From the NCBI GenBank assembly GCA_028286805.1, contig JAQBQW010000009.1, positions 1 to 33,267 of the forward strand: a DNA stretch of 33,267 nucleotides, given 5' to 3'. Position 1 is the stretch's first letter. Each line of letters begins with the position of its first letter. Origin of the DNA: Parcubacteria group bacterium (GTDB lineage Bacteria > Patescibacteriota > Minisyncoccia > Phycocordibacterales > Zambryskibacteraceae). The position numbers were made by a program, and so were the translations under genes. Under the pieces are notes generated by a model that saw only the letters and a list, made by a program, of their open reading frames with translations, ran no database searches and was not told the origin of the DNA. This document shows, in pieces, positions 23,717 through 33,267 of this stretch.

Positions 23717-24457
23717 ATGTCTGCTCTCTACCACGCTATTATTGTTAATCCCCTCTACAACGGTCTTATTGGCCTTTTCGCCATAGCTCCCTGGATTGAT
23801 GCCGGTATTGCGGTAGTGATTCTCACCATTCTGGTCCGCCTCATCCTCTACCCTCTTTCGCGAAAGGCTGTGCTTACCCAGGTTCGCATGCAGGAAATTG
23901 CTCCCGAACTAGCAAAGCTTAAAGAAAAATACAAAGACAGCGAAGAACAGGCCCGAAAGACCCTTGAATTGTATAAAGAAAAGAGCGTCAATCCTTTTTC
24001 AGGAGTGCTTGTGCTCTTGATCCAGCTCCCTATCATCTTCGCTCTCTACAGAATCTTCCTTCAAGCCGGGTTTCCTCAGGTGAATACCGCGCTTCTCTAT
24101 TCATTTGTTCATGTTCCTGAACATATCAGCATTATGTTTCTCGGATTGTTTGATATTACACAGAAAAGTTGGATCCTTGCTCTCCTTGCAGCAGCTTCAA
24201 CCTATTTCCAGCTTAAAATTGCTACGGCCCGCGCTCTTCCGCCTAAATCTGAAAAAGGAAACTTTGCGGATGATCTTTCCCGAAGCATGCAGACACAGAT
24301 GAAATACTTTTTCCCTATCCTTGTTTTTTTTATTGCGTATAAAATCTCTGGAGTGATTGCTCTCTACTGGTTGACTTCAAATCTTTTCACCATCGGCCAA
24401 GAAATCGTTGTTCGAAAAAATCTAAAGAAAGAAGGAATTATTCCTGCCCAAGCTTAA
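23717..24457 (+). CDS. yidC: Membrane protein insertase YidC/Oxa1
   Basis: LYPLSRKAVLTQVRMQEIAPELAKLKEKYKDSEEQARKTLELYKEKSVNPFSGVLVLLIQLPIIFALYRIF. Confidence 0.95.
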   Translation: MSALYHAIIVNPLYNGLIGLFAIAPWIDAGIAVVILTILVRLILYPLSRKAVLTQVRMQEIAPELAKLKEKYKDSEEQARKTLELYKEKSVNPFSGVLVLLIQLPIIFALYRIFLQAGFPQVNTALLYSFVHVPEHISIMFLGLFDITQKSWILALLAAASTYFQLKIATARALPPKSEKGNFADDLSRSMQTQMKYFFPILVFFIAYKISGVIALYWLTSNLFTIGQEIVVRKNLKKEGIIPAQA

Positions 24458-25655
24458 GGGCCCAAAGAGTGAGGTCGTTTTTGTTTGTGAATATTAAGTA
24501 GTCTTCGTCTGGAGTGAGGATGGGATTCATAACGTCGATATCAGTGTTGAAGTCTTTCTTTGGGTCTACGAGAATATCTGTAAAAGTGGTATCGGTGTTG
24601 TATCTCCAAATACGATCGACGAATCGAGTTTTTCCTTGGTACCAATTGTCTGGTTGATCTGATCCGACTCCACCCGTTGGTACCCCGCAGAACAACATGA
24701 TTTTATTCTTAATTCCCCATACGCATTTATCCACCAATGTTGCTGGAGTGAGATTTGTAATACTTTTATCCGTATTTTGAACACTGAAAGCGGCTGCTCC
24801 GTTGTTGTATGAATATGCGAGTCTCAACCCGTCTGTTCGGGGAGTAATCATTAATGCATTTAACGGTCCAAGGATTTTTGTTAGTGAGCCGCCTTTAGAA
24901 GGAAGTGTGTATGCAAATCCAGCTGCGCTTGAACTTGGTTTTGTGATTAAGAGTGCAGTCGAGCTTCCAACCGATAGCAGTCTCCAATCGGTGAAGTCTG
25001 AATTAAACAATGTTGTTAATTTTGAACCATCGAATGCGGAAGCAGAGATTGCTCCCGAATCTTTAAATGTGTAGAGGAGAGTATTGTTTTGAGCTGCCAG
25101 TTCACTTATTTGTCCTCGAATCGGTGTTGATGTGATTGTATACAAAGTGTCTGTGCTCGAAGCTTTCGGAGGTACAAGAGTGAGAGAGAGATTGTCTATA
25201 GTATCCGAATCGTTCTGTAGAGATCTGAATACAACAGCGTTTGCATCATTTCTAAATACAGCTTCATATATTTTTGGAAGGGTATCATTTGTAATTTGTG
25301 TTTTAACTAGAGTTGCAGGATCGACGTCGAATATATGACCAGTGGCTCGGTCTACATATCGAATGGTTGTTACGCCCTGTTTTATAAAGCCTATTGCTCC
25401 AGCAATAGGAGTGTCTGTAATACGGAAAAATCGTGCAATAGGTTTGCCTAGGTCATTCAAGCCTGTGGTTCCAGTGGTACCGTCTGGATTTACTGAAACA
25501 GTTACGTTCCCCTCTCCGGGTTGGCCAAATGGAGATACGACAGGTCCTGTTGATGCAGGAACTGTGCCAGAGTATCTTAGAAAGAAATACCAACCCCCTG
25601 CTCCGAGAAGGATCAAAAGAATAACTATTATCAGAGCGATTATTTTCTTGTTCAT
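24438..25655 (-). CDS. Membrane-anchored, extracytoplasmic beta-propeller-like protein (T4SS-like locus)
   Basis: N-terminal single TM (KKIIALIIVILLILLGAGGWYFFLRY) then repeated beta-rich segments; overlaps yidC 3' end by 20 bp. Confidence 0.65.
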   Translation of the reverse strand: MNKKIIALIIVILLILLGAGGWYFFLRYSGTVPASTGPVVSPFGQPGEGNVTVSVNPDGTTGTTGLNDLGKPIARFFRITDTPIAGAIGFIKQGVTTIRYVDRATGHIFDVDPATLVKTQITNDTLPKIYEAVFRNDANAVVFRSLQNDSDTIDNLSLTLVPPKASSTDTLYTITSTPIRGQISELAAQNNTLLYTFKDSGAISASAFDGSKLTTLFNSDFTDWRLLSVGSSTALLITKPSSSAAGFAYTLPSKGGSLTKILGPLNALMITPRTDGLRLAYSYNNGAAAFSVQNTDKSITNLTPATLVDKCVWGIKNKIMLFCGVPTGGVGSDQPDNWYQGKTRFVDRIWRYNTDTTFTDILVDPKKDFNTDIDVMNPILTPDEDYLIFTNKNDLTLWALKLGQE

Positions 25656-25656
25656 A

Positions 25657-26679
25657 TTATAAGTTTATATGTACGTGTTCTGCCGTTGCGTGATCTACAA
25701 CTTTAATCTTGCTTCTGATTTCTGTGACAAAGGCGTCAATACCGTCGGCTTGAATACCCAATTGTTTCCAATTGCCTCGAATATAGGATTCCAAAGAATT
25801 TCCAAAGAATACCCTTCTTGTTTCGTCTTTTACTTCCCACTGGAAACTTGGGCCGACATTATGATTAATATCTACAAAGAAACGCACAACATTTGCAGGA
25901 TTGGTAGCGTCGCTTCTTAATGCAACGTCCACACATTTTCCAGCTTCTGGACCTGGTTTGTGACAGGAATCTTCATGATTAGCAACTGGAGGGAACATTT
26001 CAGTTACTTGCCAGGTTAGACCATCAGTTTTTAACTGAGCGTCCAGATTTTTCAATTTTATTGATAGAAAAGGATCAACTACACAAGGTCCAGCTCCTGC
26101 ACAACCTGCTCCGTCAGGACTTTTTTGATCTGCAGGTAGTTTCTGATTGATCGTGCTAGGAAGTTTTACACAACGGCTACATCCGCTTGCTGGGTTATTT
26201 CCATGTGCCTGATCTATTGTTGGATCGTTTGGATCCCCTGTTGGATTTTCAACGTCTCCAAGCCCATTACCAAGCGCCGCACCACCCGCTTCTCCTGGAA
26301 TTGTTAGATTAAACTCCACCAATTTCGGATTCACCGTATACAAAATAATCCATGCACTAAAAGCCATTAAAAGGCCGATTAAAGCATTCTGGATGTCATC
26401 CTTCGAACTTTCTTTTCCACTAAATGCGTCTGTAGACATGTATTTGATCCCGGCAAAGATGAGTTTTAACACTGCAAGCACCCCCGCAAGTCCAATAAGA
26501 AGCTTATACATACCAGGAATGTAACTAACAATACTAGCTTTACCGCTCGCATCACTCACAATTGGAATTGGAGCGAGTAAACAATATCCATCTGCCCCAG
26601 GGTTACATTCAGCAGAGACGGGAATAACAGGAGAGAAAGAGAGGAATGCAACGATGAGGATAAGGAAAAGTTTTTTCAT
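25657..26679 (-). CDS. VirB2-like pilin domain fused to M15-peptidase-like C-terminal domain
   Basis: Signal peptide, two-TM pilin-like core (YKLLIGLAGVLAVLKLIFAGIKYMSTD...IQNALIGLLMAFSAWIILYTVNPKLVEF), then Cys-rich linker and CHKPGPEAGKCVDVALR...TAEHVHINL. Confidence 0.65.
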   Translation of the reverse strand: MKKLFLILIVAFLSFSPVIPVSAECNPGADGYCLLAPIPIVSDASGKASIVSYIPGMYKLLIGLAGVLAVLKLIFAGIKYMSTDAFSGKESSKDDIQNALIGLLMAFSAWIILYTVNPKLVEFNLTIPGEAGGAALGNGLGDVENPTGDPNDPTIDQAHGNNPASGCSRCVKLPSTINQKLPADQKSPDGAGCAGAGPCVVDPFLSIKLKNLDAQLKTDGLTWQVTEMFPPVANHEDSCHKPGPEAGKCVDVALRSDATNPANVVRFFVDINHNVGPSFQWEVKDETRRVFFGNSLESYIRGNWKQLGIQADGIDAFVTEIRSKIKVVDHATAEHVHINL

Positions 26680-26681
26680 GG

Positions 26682-27659
26682 TTAATTCTTATTGCCAAAT
26701 TGTACACTAAAAGTTTTTTGCGCACTTTGGGTGATGTCTATTGAATTCCGAGCCTCGAGCAAAACTAACGAGGTTCCCGAAGCCCCCTCTGGGATTCTGT
26801 ACGTCACATCGCTTCCAGGTTTTGAATCTGATCCGCTGGCCCAAGAATACACAATCTGTTCAGCTGTGCGGTTGAGAGCGCCAAAGAATAGCGGAATACC
26901 AACAAACGAGAACTCTTTGTTTGTTGTGACGAATGCATCCCCCACTTCCCTATTAAAAGATATTCCATACAGAGGACTCTTTTCGTACACAAGCAAACTA
27001 GGACTAATTGAAGTTTGAGTTAAAGATGCTGAAGCAACCGTAGTGTCTCTGTCTGTTAGAATCTCCACTTTTACGGTTCGCGGCTGCCTAAGAAGAGAGC
27101 CTGTAAAGGAGAAAGAGCTTCTTCCTGTACCAGACACTTGTCCCATAACCTCTCCATCTAAATACCATTTGTATATAAGGGTTGAGGCACTTTTACCTAC
27201 GTGAGGTATTGCAAGAAGCGTGAGAGTGGTTTGGTGTGTCCAAAGTGTTTTACCTTTATAGAAAGGTGGAGTGTACCCACTGCCCTGCCATAACAGGTCT
27301 ACTGATCCAGATGAAACAGTGAATGTTTTTGTGAAATCTCCTTGGTTAGACTTAATGCTCACTCCAATCGTTGTTTCTCCCGTGGAAGGAGCGGTAAGAG
27401 TGAAAGAAGTTAGACCAAGACCGCTCTTCGCACCTATCTTATTCAAACTCCATGTAATGGTGGCGGTTCCAAGGTCTATGGTAGAAGACTGGAGACGAGC
27501 TGTTACCGTATCTCCCGGGGCTGGATATTGAGGGGTCAGATTCAAAATAATTCCAGAAGCCAAAATATCTTCTGTTCCATCTATACTGGGAACTTGAGCG
27601 TGAATAAGAACAGGACTGAAGAGAATACCCACAAGAAGAGCAAAAGATGTAAACTTCAT
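26682..27659 (-). CDS. Secreted Ig/PKD-like hypothetical protein (T4SS-like locus)
   Basis: Signal peptide MKFTSFALLVGILFSPVLIHAQ; beta-rich segments. Confidence 0.6.
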   Translation of the reverse strand: MKFTSFALLVGILFSPVLIHAQVPSIDGTEDILASGIILNLTPQYPAPGDTVTARLQSSTIDLGTATITWSLNKIGAKSGLGLTSFTLTAPSTGETTIGVSIKSNQGDFTKTFTVSSGSVDLLWQGSGYTPPFYKGKTLWTHQTTLTLLAIPHVGKSASTLIYKWYLDGEVMGQVSGTGRSSFSFTGSLLRQPRTVKVEILTDRDTTVASASLTQTSISPSLLVYEKSPLYGISFNREVGDAFVTTNKEFSFVGIPLFFGALNRTAEQIVYSWASGSDSKPGSDVTYRIPEGASGTSLVLLEARNSIDITQSAQKTFSVQFGNKN

Positions 27660-27687: not shown

Positions 27688-28080
27688 TTAAGCAGCCTTC
27701 TGCTGGTCGTTTGAAGATCGGGAGTCTAATCGACCAGGTTTTCTTTCTTCTTGAACGTTTTTCGAATCGCTTTCTCCCAGTTTATCTTTTTTGTCCATCA
27801 TATACATAAAAACTCCATCTGCGCACCATAATGGAAGTGCATCAAGCACAGGTATTTGTTCAATAAGAAATGCACCGAGCATACTCCCCACTTTCTTTCC
27901 ATCCATTTTCACCCCTCGCATTCTGAGATAAAAAGGCAAGGTCATACCGACTCCAATATCAATAAATCTGTTTGCAGCAACGCCAATAACAAAGATATCA
28001 AGTGCAAATTGTACAAGATCAATCATTGCCAAGGCTCCAATAGTGAGCCCCCATTCCATATTAGACATCTTGCTTCCCAT
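27688..28080 (-). CDS. Small membrane protein of T4SS-like locus
   Basis: ORF with several hydrophobic segments and charged C-terminal tail, between virB4-like and secreted protein genes. Confidence 0.6.
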   Translation of the reverse strand: MGSKMSNMEWGLTIGALAMIDLVQFALDIFVIGVAANRFIDIGVGMTLPFYLRMRGVKMDGKKVGSMLGAFLIEQIPVLDALPLWCADGVFMYMMDKKDKLGESDSKNVQEERKPGRLDSRSSNDQQKAA

Positions 28081-28084
28081 GTCT

Positions 28085-29947
28085 CTAGTTTACCTTATTT
28101 GGGAGAGTTTCTATCGGAACCGTTTCGGTTGCAGGTGATCTATCCTCCTCTGCAATCTGTCGTGCTTTCTTCTGGGCTAACACTTGAGACGGATCCGAGG
28201 TAATAATCTGGTCTTCCGTATACGAAGCAATGACTTTGATGGCAACGTGTTTTAGTCCTGCAAAGAAGATTCCCTCCCCCACGTCTGATTCGAGTAACAA
28301 ATATTTCTCTTCATCTGTCAGATTAAATGTTTCTTTCAGTTTATCAATCGTGGTCGGAGATTGTTTCAACAATATTTGAATCGAAGAGTTGGTGATGATC
28401 GGCAAACCGTATGGACTCTTTAAGAAGTCATCCACGTCCTGGGTGATGGTTGCCACTCCAAGGAAATACTTCCTTCCTCGCTTCACGAGACCCATAAGGA
28501 ACGATGCCGTATCGTCTGATTTCATCATCCACCAAGCTTCATCGATAACAAGCAATCTCTTCTTTAATTCTTTTCGAATGGCGTTCCAGATGTAATGCGT
28601 AATGATATACATGGCAATCGGTTTCAATTCGTCTTCCATATCTCGGAGAGAGAACACAACGAATTTTCGATTGATATCCACGTTTGTTGGGCGGTTAATG
28701 AATCCTGCCCAGGTTCCTTTGGTGTATTTGGTTAATCTCTGGGCGAGAGACTCCCCTCCTTCCATACCGGAGAGCACCAATTCGAAATCAGACATGAGTG
28801 GAGGTTCGATGGTGCTGAAGTCTGAATCGGCAGTAATGTCTTTCAAGGCATATGTTTCGGTGATGGCGCGATCGATTATGGCGTCTTCCTCTGCGGTAAG
28901 GCCTCCCATCATCAGTCTGAAGAGACCGACGAGGTTGATGATGTTCGATCTCAAGATGTTTCCGGTGCTTTCATCCGGTCCTGGTAAAGGAAGATCAAAT
29001 GGATTGATGTGGTGTTCGGAGTTAAGAGAAATCTTGAAATGCCTTCCCCCCACCGCTTCCGCCATGTATTCGTATTCGTTTTCTGGGTCCATACAGATGA
29101 CTTCTGCATCGAACATGAGAGTACGAAGAATTTCCAGTTTGGTCATATAGGATTTACCCGAACCAGATTTCGCAAAGATAATCGAGTTGTAGTTTTCAAG
29201 GCTGAAACGGTCGAACAAAACGAGTGATGAGTTGTGTCTGTTAATTCCGTACAGGATCCCCTTGTCTGAAGTGAGGTCGAAGGATGTGAACGGGAACAAA
29301 GATGAAAGGGGTGAAGAATTTAATTTTGAGTGGACATTCAGAAGATCATTTCCAAGTGGAAGCGTGCTTTGGAATCCTTGTTCCTGCTGGAAGAGAGCGG
29401 GTTTTACATATACAAGCTTGGCATCAAGAATGGATTTGATCTCTGTCTCTACTTTATCCAATTCCGCTTCTGAATCCGCATAGATAGTGATATAGAGTCC
29501 TACATCAAAGAGTTTCTCCTGCGCCTGCTGCAATTGGTCTCGAAGATTTTCCAAATCTTGGTATGCAACATCGAGCATTGGGTCTCGAACCAACCCCTTC
29601 TCTTCCCTGGTATGGATCTGGCTTTGCACTTCCGCTACCTTCTTTTGAAATTGTCTCAGAACCTTGGATGTTTCAATTGGATGAACGAAGATTGAAACGT
29701 CGAATACCTTGTCCATGTTAATGATTGGAGAGAACCATGATTCGGAAAGGAATCGAGGGTATGAGATGACAAAGAAAGATCGCAGGATCTTTTCTCCAAG
29801 GTTTAATTCTTTTGGAGATACCTTGAGTGCACTCGGTGCAATGATGTCTTTCAGTTCAAGCACACCTGCTTCAAAGATTTCCTGGGGCAAAATAGAAGCA
29901 ATCTCTGCTTTCTTTTCTTTTTTAAATAATGAATCGAATATTCCCAT
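28085..29947 (-). CDS. virB4: VirB4/TraC-family T4SS ATPase
   Basis: Walker A SIIFAKSGSGKSYMTKLEILR, MDPENEYEYMAEAVGG, INPFDLP, Walker B RLLVIDEAWWMM, ATITQDVDDFL. Confidence 0.93.
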   Translation of the reverse strand: MGIFDSLFKKEKKAEIASILPQEIFEAGVLELKDIIAPSALKVSPKELNLGEKILRSFFVISYPRFLSESWFSPIINMDKVFDVSIFVHPIETSKVLRQFQKKVAEVQSQIHTREEKGLVRDPMLDVAYQDLENLRDQLQQAQEKLFDVGLYITIYADSEAELDKVETEIKSILDAKLVYVKPALFQQEQGFQSTLPLGNDLLNVHSKLNSSPLSSLFPFTSFDLTSDKGILYGINRHNSSLVLFDRFSLENYNSIIFAKSGSGKSYMTKLEILRTLMFDAEVICMDPENEYEYMAEAVGGRHFKISLNSEHHINPFDLPLPGPDESTGNILRSNIINLVGLFRLMMGGLTAEEDAIIDRAITETYALKDITADSDFSTIEPPLMSDFELVLSGMEGGESLAQRLTKYTKGTWAGFINRPTNVDINRKFVVFSLRDMEDELKPIAMYIITHYIWNAIRKELKKRLLVIDEAWWMMKSDDTASFLMGLVKRGRKYFLGVATITQDVDDFLKSPYGLPIITNSSIQILLKQSPTTIDKLKETFNLTDEEKYLLLESDVGEGIFFAGLKHVAIKVIASYTEDQIITSDPSQVLAQKKARQIAEEDRSPATETVPIETLPNKVN

Positions 29948-29956
29948 GGTTGTGTA

Positions 29957-30595
29957 TTATGCGGTTTTGATAGGCTTCTCTGATTCCCCGGGGTTGAATC
30001 CCTTGTAGAAGAGTTCGATCACCTCTTCTGTGCCCAATCTGGCAACTCTGATGCCTGTACGGACCAATCCTTGCTCCACCACAGCCGTTCTCTCTTCAAG
30101 CTGGGTTCTGTTTTCTTCAAAACTTGCTTGGCTCTGAGCAGCTTTTTCTTTATTTGTTTTTGAACCGAAGAGAGAACCGATACCGCTTACTTTCTCTGGG
30201 CTAATGGATGAAGGAGTGTATGGGATGACCACAAAGAAGTTTTTGGTCATAATGTTCGTGCTTTCGGTGAACTTCTTGATGAATTCTATGTACTCTCTGG
30301 TTTGAATCTTCATTAAACTGTTTGCTTGATTCTTTTCTTGTTCCTCAAGAAGCGCGATGTATGGACGGATGTCCAGCTTACGAGATTGGATGGTGATTTC
30401 AATTGAAAAGTCTAAAGAGTTCAGAAAATCCTGGAATTGGAAGATGATGGCATTCTTCTCGTCTTCGGATTTGAGAGAAAAGTTTAACGAAGATGCGAGA
30501 AGTATAGATCTCATCCCCCCATCCTTCAAAATGAGGACACCGTCACGAACTTCTTTGATTGGGACGAACTGTTGAGTGGAATTAGTGCTAGCCAT
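29957..30595 (-). CDS. VirB4 N-terminal/TraC-like stand-alone protein
   Basis: VPIKEVRDGVLILKDGGMRSILLASSLNFSLKSEDEKNAIIFQFQDFLNSLDFSIEITIQSRKLDIRPYI; start moved to MASTNST at 30595. Confidence 0.75.
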   Translation of the reverse strand: MASTNSTQQFVPIKEVRDGVLILKDGGMRSILLASSLNFSLKSEDEKNAIIFQFQDFLNSLDFSIEITIQSRKLDIRPYIALLEEQEKNQANSLMKIQTREYIEFIKKFTESTNIMTKNFFVVIPYTPSSISPEKVSGIGSLFGSKTNKEKAAQSQASFEENRTQLEERTAVVEQGLVRTGIRVARLGTEEVIELFYKGFNPGESEKPIKTA

Positions 30596-30601
30596 GAATG
30601 T

Positions 30602-30607
30602 ATTATA
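30602..30607 (-). promoter_or_regulatory. -10 element (TATAAT) of leaderless promoter
   Basis: Minus strand TATAAT-ACATTC-ATG(30595). Confidence 0.6.
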
Positions 30608-31046
30608 TCTTAAATCTTTCGTCCGGAGATTGTTTCTGAGGGATTTCTTGTTGTTCCGTACTTGTATCGAGTGCAACTGCCAAATCTTTTAGTTTGGATT
30701 CAGAGAGTTTTGGTACATATATCTGGTTTGCTTGCATGGGAGTTGCTTCTCTCGCTTCGGGTTTTCTTTCTTCTTTCTTCCAGACATACAATTTGCTGCC
30801 AAATGAATAGTGCAAGAAGCTTTCAACGGTATCCGTGAAAGAACGCTCGTTTACTCTATAGAAGGCCAAGGCCCCGCCAAAGACAAGAACTGGTACCGCA
30901 AGGAGGATGGCAATGAATCGAGGGAGGAAGACAAGCAGTATAACCACCACTCCAATTGAACCTGCAATATAAAGGAACTGTTTGAAGGTTAAAGGTCCAA
31001 ATATCTTATCTTCGACTTCAATAAATTGAGGGACTTGGAAACGCAT
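30603..31046 (-). CDS. PrgI-family (VirB3-like) T4SS inner-membrane protein
   Basis: MRFQVPQFIEVEDKIFGPLTFKQFLYIAGSIGVVVILL... tandem TM near N-terminus. Confidence 0.88.
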   Translation of the reverse strand: MRFQVPQFIEVEDKIFGPLTFKQFLYIAGSIGVVVILLVFLPRFIAILLAVPVLVFGGALAFYRVNERSFTDTVESFLHYSFGSKLYVWKKEERKPEAREATPMQANQIYVPKLSESKLKDLAVALDTSTEQQEIPQKQSPDERFKI

Positions 31047-31777: not shown

Positions 31778-33267
31778 TTATGAGAAGTCTGCTATTCCAG
31801 CAGGACTTGCAAGATATGTTAACACGCTTGGATTTACAATAGCGTGTGCTGAAGGAGCTTCAAGTGCGGCACGAAGAGTGGTGATATCTGCAGGTTCCAT
31901 TTCGAGCGCCATTTTCTTAAGAATATTAGGTTTTAGGGCAGATAATACATCTGGATGGAGAAGAATCGATGCTCCCACTAATGGTAAACCATTTGTATCT
32001 ACAAAGTCTCCTGTTGTACTCATGAGTCCTGCGATGTCTTTTGCGCTCAGTCGTTTATTGATCATGTCACGTACAAGCGTAGGATTCGCAAGATGACCAT
32101 TTGCTGAAGTATCGAGCGCTCTAATCAAAGGAGCTTTTCTTCGATCTCCGATATTCTTCTTTTGATTTTTTGTAAACTTATTGTTCTTCATAATCGCATC
32201 AACTTGTGAAGGTTTGAGTTGAGAGACGAAGTCTTCTCGATTCAAATGGTCTGATTTGACCATTGCCAATTCAGGATCGGAAAGACCTTTGATTGCTTTC
32301 GCAACCCCTGGGTCCATAACAGGAGTACCACCCGCTGTCCGTATCGCTTCCATTCTATCCATTTCTGTATTAATAGATCCAAATCTTTTACCCTTAAGCA
32401 TGTCTTTCTCCCCTTCTGAGAATTTATCGCTCTTATTAATTGCTTCAAGTTGCTGCACGCTAATATTATTAGCAAACGCTTGAGTATCGAGAAGTGCCCT
32501 GTTGCCGTCCACAATGGCTTCGATTTCCTTATCGCTCATACGGTTGATGCTCTTCTCCATAGCATCAATTTGAGCTTGGGTTGCACCTGGCTTAATACCG
32601 TTTCTGATAGCTGCCGCATCTTCAGCCCTGCGTAATTCTTCATTATCTGCTTTTTTCTTTGCAGCAATTCGTTTCTCATCTGCTTCTTTATTTTCTTTAT
32701 ATCCAGTTGTTCCCCCTTTGCCTACACCTGCAACTCCTGCTGCAGGACCTCCAATAGGAACTGATTTCCAATTAACGTCATCTGCTCCTACGAATCTACC
32801 AACGGCTGTCCTACCCAAAGTTCCTTCAATCGCATCCCCCACGGCTGCAGTTGGAACAGAGGCGTTACGTACATCAAATGTACCACTGCGAGCTTTTCTA
32901 GCAGCATATAAGGCAAGGCGAGCGCCGGCTCCGGGCAATCCCACCTTGGTTCTCGCAGCTTCTTGTAGTGTTGCATTATTCGCTATAATTTCACCTGGTT
33001 TACCAATAAATTTCCTTCCCATTCCCCCAAGTGCTGTGCCAAATAATAATCCGCCAGCTGCACCGGTTGCTGCAGAGGTAAGTTTGCCGATACCATTACC
33101 TGTTCTGTTGGAGATAGATTTAGCGATAATCAGAGAAAATACCAAGAAACAAATAACAATGGCTAGGCTGAGGAGGGTCTCTCCAGATCCAGCTGCGTAT
33201 GAAAGTTTTCCATCTGCTTCAACAATGGTCCCAGTTAAAGCGTTGGCAAGCGGTAACCTATTGTTGA
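31778..33267 (-). CDS. VirB6/TrbL-like T4SS membrane protein with long repeat-bearing C-terminal tail (partial; N-terminus outside window)
   Basis: Frame is open past the listed start (33145) to the window edge: NNRLPLANALTGTIVEADGKLSYAAGSGETLLSLAIVICFLVFSLIIAKSISNRTG...; TM segment then Gly/Ala-rich region, then soluble tail. Confidence 0.6.
   Translation of the reverse strand, partial: NNRLPLANALTGTIVEADGKLSYAAGSGETLLSLAIVICFLVFSLIIAKSISNRTGNGIGKLTSAATGAAGGLLFGTALGGMGRKFIGKPGEIIANNATLQEAARTKVGLPGAGARLALYAARKARSGTFDVRNASVPTAAVGDAIEGTLGRTAVGRFVGADDVNWKSVPIGGPAAGVAGVGKGGTTGYKENKEADEKRIAAKKKADNEELRRAEDAAAIRNGIKPGATQAQIDAMEKSINRMSDKEIEAIVDGNRALLDTQAFANNISVQQLEAINKSDKFSEGEKDMLKGKRFGSINTEMDRMEAIRTAGGTPVMDPGVAKAIKGLSDPELAMVKSDHLNREDFVSQLKPSQVDAIMKNNKFTKNQKKNIGDRRKAPLIRALDTSANGHLANPTLVRDMINKRLSAKDIAGLMSTTGDFVDTNGLPLVGASILLHPDVLSALKPNILKKMALEMEPADITTLRAALEAPSAHAIVNPSVLTYLASPAGIADFS

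Follow-up and report, generated by a model that had tools for sequence, protein, structure and literature searches.

The window (the whole 33,267-nucleotide stretch analysed) encodes a type IV secretion system (T4SS) pilin joined, in one protein, to a C-terminal domain whose predicted fold is that of the Hedgehog/DD-peptidase (LAS) superfamily, within a T4SS operon of a 577 kb genome assembled in 32 contigs (Table 1). The gene probably specifies a specialised pilin of the chromosomal, oriC-proximal T4SS of a Patescibacterium (Paceibacteria/Parcubacteria lineage), in which a LAS-fold, zinc-dependent, peptidoglycan-cleaving domain replaces VirB1. The architecture is new and built of known parts; a literature search of open-licence papers found no earlier report of a pilin-hedgehog-fold fusion. 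The fusion recurs in dozens of genomes, and across 49 sequences its candidate catalytic positions vary little or not at all, indicating that it exceeds chance; a coincidental H/D/H arrangement was ruled out by this conservation across the family.

Hydropathy analysis places hydrophobic segments of the protein at about residues 1-24 (signal-peptide-like), 58-78 and 99-117, supplying the N-terminal signal and the two hydrophobic helices expected of the T4SS_pilin family, and the expected operon with VirB4 and PrgI is also present. The T4SS_pilin model PF18895 scores 26.5 bits, 0.1 bit below its cut-off of 26.6, the TrbC/VirB2 model PF04956 matches weakly (0.031), and the NCBIfam model of a Mycoplasma ICE pilin-like protein gives a sub-threshold match. 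Among the 11 family relatives scanned with PF18895, 8 score over the cut-off, L063 equals the score of the window protein, and L072 and L068 fall under it. These results bear out the originally described pattern of a signal peptide followed by a two-TM VirB2/TrbC-like pilin region. The further elements it had described are all located in the 340-residue reading frame: the Cys-rich linker (C167, C170, C193, C199), the H-x10-D spacing (CHKPGPEAGKCVDV, H240-x10-D251) and the terminal EHVHI (E334, H335, H337).

Table 1. Features of the fusion gene and its operon in the window, by position and strand.
Feature	Position	Strand	Basis
Pilin-hedgehog-fold fusion gene	25657..26679	(-)	340 aa, one unbroken ORF, ATG start
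Signal-peptide-like N-terminus, residues 1-24	26608..26679	(-)	Hydropathy
Two-helix T4SS pilin region, residues 54-115	26335..26520	(-)	PF18895 E 7e-6; hydropathy
Low-complexity Gly/Pro linker from pilin region to C-terminal domain, residues ~116-154	26218..26334	(-)	Sequence
Cys-rich segment and predicted hedgehog/DD-peptidase-fold domain, residues 155-340	25660..26217	(-)	AlphaFold, PDB fold matches, family profile
E227, equivalent of ShhN E127, 49/49	25999..26001	(-)	HMMER alignment
H235, equivalent of ShhN H135, 49/49	25975..25977	(-)	HMMER alignment
H240, equivalent of ShhN zinc ligand H141, 46/49	25960..25962	(-)	HMMER alignment
D251, equivalent of ShhN zinc ligand D148, 49/49	25927..25929	(-)	HMMER alignment
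E282, equivalent of ShhN catalytic E177 (YE), 49/49	25834..25836	(-)	HMMER alignment
H335-V-H337, equivalent of ShhN H181-x-H183	25669..25677	(-)	By motif, beyond the HMMER-aligned stretch
VirB4/TraG-like ATPase, same operon	28085..29947	(-)	PF19044 E 1.1e-26; synteny
PrgI (VirB3-like) protein	30603..31046	(-)	PF12666 E 2.7e-10; synteny
Conserved protein preceding VirB4 in the operon, without Pfam assignment	29957..30676	(-)	Synteny
Small membrane protein adjoining VirB4	27688..28080	(-)	Synteny
Conserved protein of the operon directly upstream of the fusion, with signal peptide and probable Ig-like repeats, no Pfam assignment	26682..27659	(-)	
Conserved single-TM operon protein, immediately downstream of the fusion, no Pfam assignment	24438..25655	(-)	
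Large protein truncated at the window edge; VirB6-like judging by position alone	31778..33265	(-)	

With the window proteins as queries, the same operon order recurs in many relatives: the VirB6-position protein, PrgI, an unassigned protein and VirB4, followed by another unassigned protein, the slot pilin, a further unassigned protein, and then what we take, by eye from their sequences, to be YidC, RnpA and DnaA. The two proteins directly flanking the fusion accompany the slot wherever it is conserved. For Patescibacteria, a report that makes no mention of hedgehog or M15 domains describes VirB2-like pilins and a location of T4SS genes near dnaA (PMC12102498). The pilins of that report share with the window protein the position in a VirB4/PrgI operon near dnaA and, together with T4SS_pilin PF18895, the signal peptide and two-helix hairpin. 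Ordinary T4SS pilins, however, measure approximately 90-190 residues and lack an enzyme-fold tail, whereas the window protein reaches 340 residues with one. The same genome also has an array of about six short pilin genes at a distance from the VirB4 operon (L141, G000:C26:8000-20000), so the long fusion is probably a minor or specialised subunit. If it is incorporated into the pilus, it is more likely to be a minor component of the base or tip than the main pilus protein. At L136:825-5771, a 1649-residue protein carries a pilin-like two-helix segment at its end.

AlphaFold, run without templates, modeled residues 155-340 of the window protein with a pLDDT of 84.5 and a pTM of 0.79, and the compact relative L078:7995-8375 with values of 86.8 and 0.82. 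In Foldseek searches with this compact relative, hedgehog N-domains occupy the first 35 places among the PDB matches (probability 0.99-1.00, TM-score up to 0.63, E-values from 1e-3), ahead of the VanY-like LdcB (M15). The window domain retrieves hedgehogs and MepA (M74) as leading matches with TM-scores of 0.3-0.5, modest values that are expected from its insertions; at best, the fold searches reach E-values near 1e-3 to 1e-2. On these models, the C-terminal domain belongs to the LAS superfamily, with hedgehog N-domains, and not VanX/VanY, as its nearest solved relatives. Profile searches of the PDB give a similar ranking in two cases: the 49-sequence family profile (A5) matches Sonic hedgehog with an E-value of 1.9e-4, its best hits all being hedgehogs, and the 13-sequence profile A2 matches it at 0.0026. 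Because the 26-row profile A4 does not find hedgehog, the sequence link must be regarded as alignment-dependent, whereas the fold result is independent of that choice. The window protein alone has no match among PDB sequences.

Model libraries return little for this domain. Pfam, NCBIfam and PHROGs hold no model for it; Pfam HH_signal (PF01085) does not match the window protein and reaches one relative at an E-value of 0.17, below the cut-off; the Pfam and NCBIfam M15 models do not match the window protein either. The M15 motif HxxGxAxD is replaced by CHKPGPEAGKCVD in the window protein and by CHxxGTCVD in relatives. A plain M15 identity was rejected on the missing model match and the missing motif. 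The original prediction of an M15-like peptidase thus holds for a fused domain of the superfamily that contains M15, with conserved candidate metal-binding and catalytic residues, but not for the M15 family itself, and the comparison it proposed, of the AlphaFold fold with M15 structures, places hedgehogs first and MepA or LdcB next.

M15 enzymes (VanX, VanY, LdcB) and M74 (MepA), the source of the next-best fold matches after hedgehogs, share with the window domain the superfamily and the zinc-ligand order H...D...H; the window domain differs in having H-x10-D in place of HxxGxAxD and no Trp before the last His. With ShhN and the bacterial hedgehogs (bacHh) it shares the predicted fold and the EHHDEHH motif, including equivalents of E127, H135 and E177, E127 being the one residue of the ShhN calcium site that was compared. 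Unlike these proteins, the window domain is attached to a T4SS pilin, its family has added conserved Cys residues (CHxxGTC, CxxC) and a longer segment before HxH, and the window protein has neither an HH_signal match over the cut-off nor a C-terminal autoprocessing domain. Earlier work had noted only about a dozen bacterial hedgehogs, all highly conserved and without a known function (PMC6027127); the present family adds a large, diverse set of bacterial hedgehog-fold relatives.

Conservation follows the hedgehog catalytic motif EHHDEHH (motif and ShhN numbering from PMC4102407). In the HMMER alignment, ShhN E127, H135, H141 and D148 face the E, H, H and D of the family, and E177 faces the family YE. 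The window protein retains all seven motif residues, with H240, D251 and H337 as the putative zinc ligands H, D, H of the LAS superfamily. Mean column identity of the 49-sequence alignment is only 21%, and a core of VTExxPPTxxHxxxCHxxGTCVD ... YE ... HF[HS]V is conserved. The usual spacing is H-x6-D (CHxxGTCVD), the H-x10-D of the window protein reflecting a 4-residue insertion. Five sequences (L012, L019, L021, L056 and L065), each truncated, duplicate or degenerate, were left out of the alignment, so the tally describes intact members. Conservation of the H/D/H ligands among homologues, which had been proposed as a check, holds for the first His (46/49) and the Asp (49/49); the last His is Ser in 23/49 members.

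At the HxH position, 16/49 members have HxH, 23/49 HxS and 10/49 xxH, and the second His of EHHDEHH is Gln in 3/49. Two members from the genus of the window itself, L012 and L019, have lost most of the catalytic motif, which suggests recent loss of activity. With Ser as the last zinc ligand in nearly half of the members and these degenerate copies, catalysis is not a family-wide requirement. To judge from their residues, members with HxS, with Gln for the second His or with a degenerate motif are probably restricted to binding, and many family members may be non-catalytic. In animal hedgehog, the zinc-site cleft is used for binding. By analogy, the domain could be a non-catalytic pseudopeptidase whose ligand, at the contact site of the pilus or T4SS, is peptidoglycan or a molecule on the host surface. 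The frequency of HxS makes such a role a serious rival in many members, and the Gln substitutions, the degenerate copies, and the exchange of the domain for an M15-like one or its absence in the same slot are consistent with it. The invariance of E, H, D and E in 49/49 sequences, however, goes beyond the needs of simple binding, and the window member keeps the complete motif, leaving the pseudopeptidase a possible but less probable explanation.

Alternatively, the protein could be an ordinary M15 D-Ala-D-Ala or L,D-peptidase serving the wall of its own cell, unrelated to secretion, with an acquired pilin-like anchor. The superfamily relation to VanY/LdcB is compatible with such an origin, the two-helix hairpin could act as a simple anchor, and some relatives have one TM and lack the pilin hairpin (L054/L078, L055/L077). 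Against these stand the location of the gene inside the T4SS operon in window-like genomes, the PF18895 match of the pilin part, a separate VanY-type enzyme already encoded in the same genome, and the domain's lack of an M15 model match, making own-wall maintenance very unlikely.

In the favored interpretation, a wall-processing T4SS pilin, the signal peptide and two-helix hairpin would be embedded in the membrane, leaving the C-terminus on the outside. VirB2-like pilins adopt a hairpin topology, and this topology together with the many conserved Cys residues points to an extracytoplasmic C-terminus, where the Cys residues would form disulfides. H240, D251 and H337 would coordinate the zinc, E282 would act as the general base and H235 as a substrate clamp, and the domain would bind and cleave peptide cross-links or stem peptides of peptidoglycan where the T4SS crosses or contacts a wall; peptidoglycan is the presumed target because it is the usual substrate of the superfamily. 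No SLT or CHAP (VirB1-type) domain was found in the window protein or its genome, so the fusion pilin could supply the VirB1 function, replacing a separate VirB1. The proposed role, local wall processing, resembles that of VirB1, the SLT/CHAP wall hydrolase of T4SS, although the folds are unrelated and the window domain, unlike VirB1, is fused to a pilin; a wall-opening role is plausible. Against this reading count the separate VanY-type enzyme of the genome, the loss of the last zinc ligand in many relatives, and slot pilins that lack any peptidase domain (L137, L138, L140). T4SS genes are essential for life on the host in one cultivated Patescibacterium, and VirB1 is missing from most genomes that encode these pilins (PMC12102498). 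To the question of how the machine meets a wall, a pilin with its own wall-peptidase-like domain would provide a direct, testable answer.

The slot pilin carries different domains in different relatives: a hedgehog-type domain in seven (L062, L069, L072, L073, L074, L081, L082), another domain with the pattern ITGGTE..H..HxPGxxVDL..E..HWH in six (L127-L132), and no recognisable peptidase domain in five (L133, L135, L137, L138, L140). The second domain is M15-like, PF13539 matching L129 with an E-value of 0.0026, below its cut-off. M15-like domains ending in HWH or HWD occur on slot pilins of related genomes at L127-L132 and L142-L166. Across 294 genomes of the order, the hedgehog-type profile matches 28, the M15-like profile 68 (only some of these being inspected for a pilin part), and either profile 95, about a third. 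Both match in a single genome (G086), versus 6.5 expected by chance (hypergeometric P = 0.004, kinship ignored), and the two domains appear to alternate in a single slot. The exception, L051:1468-2532, is a 355-residue pilin fusion matching both profiles and a possible evolutionary bridge. Direct homology of the two domains is weakly supported, profile-profile comparison giving probabilities of 18% and 9%; their kinship is argued from the shared residue order, the shared slot and this one bridging protein. A more far-reaching version is speculative and rather unlikely: the T4SS pilus of an episymbiont, or its base, would be equipped with a zinc peptidase of hedgehog type, interchangeable with an M15-like enzyme, and would cut the host-cell wall with it at the contact site. 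If true, it would mean a pilin that bears an enzyme, and a testable cellular role outside animals for a protein of hedgehog fold.

The initial scan of genome contigs with the single protein found no relative, and plasmids and phages gave no matches to the domain. The search among relatives gave matches in 21/147 genomes, one of which (L022) is a clear false match on inspection, and the profile search gave matches in 29/297 genomes of the order and 11/384 across the phylum. Relatives are named in public records as Zambryskibacteria, Kaiserbacteria, Wolfebacteria, Yonathbacteria, Moranbacteria and Doudnabacteria. Almost every intact member carries the domain on the same two-helix pilin, with a few having only one TM or another N-terminus. 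At L054/L078 and L055/L077, a pilin fusion is directly followed by a stand-alone, one-TM copy of the same domain (HLHVY). At L058:1387-2349, the domain is carried by a non-pilin membrane protein, with NHYNGFSVD and without the usual Cys pair.
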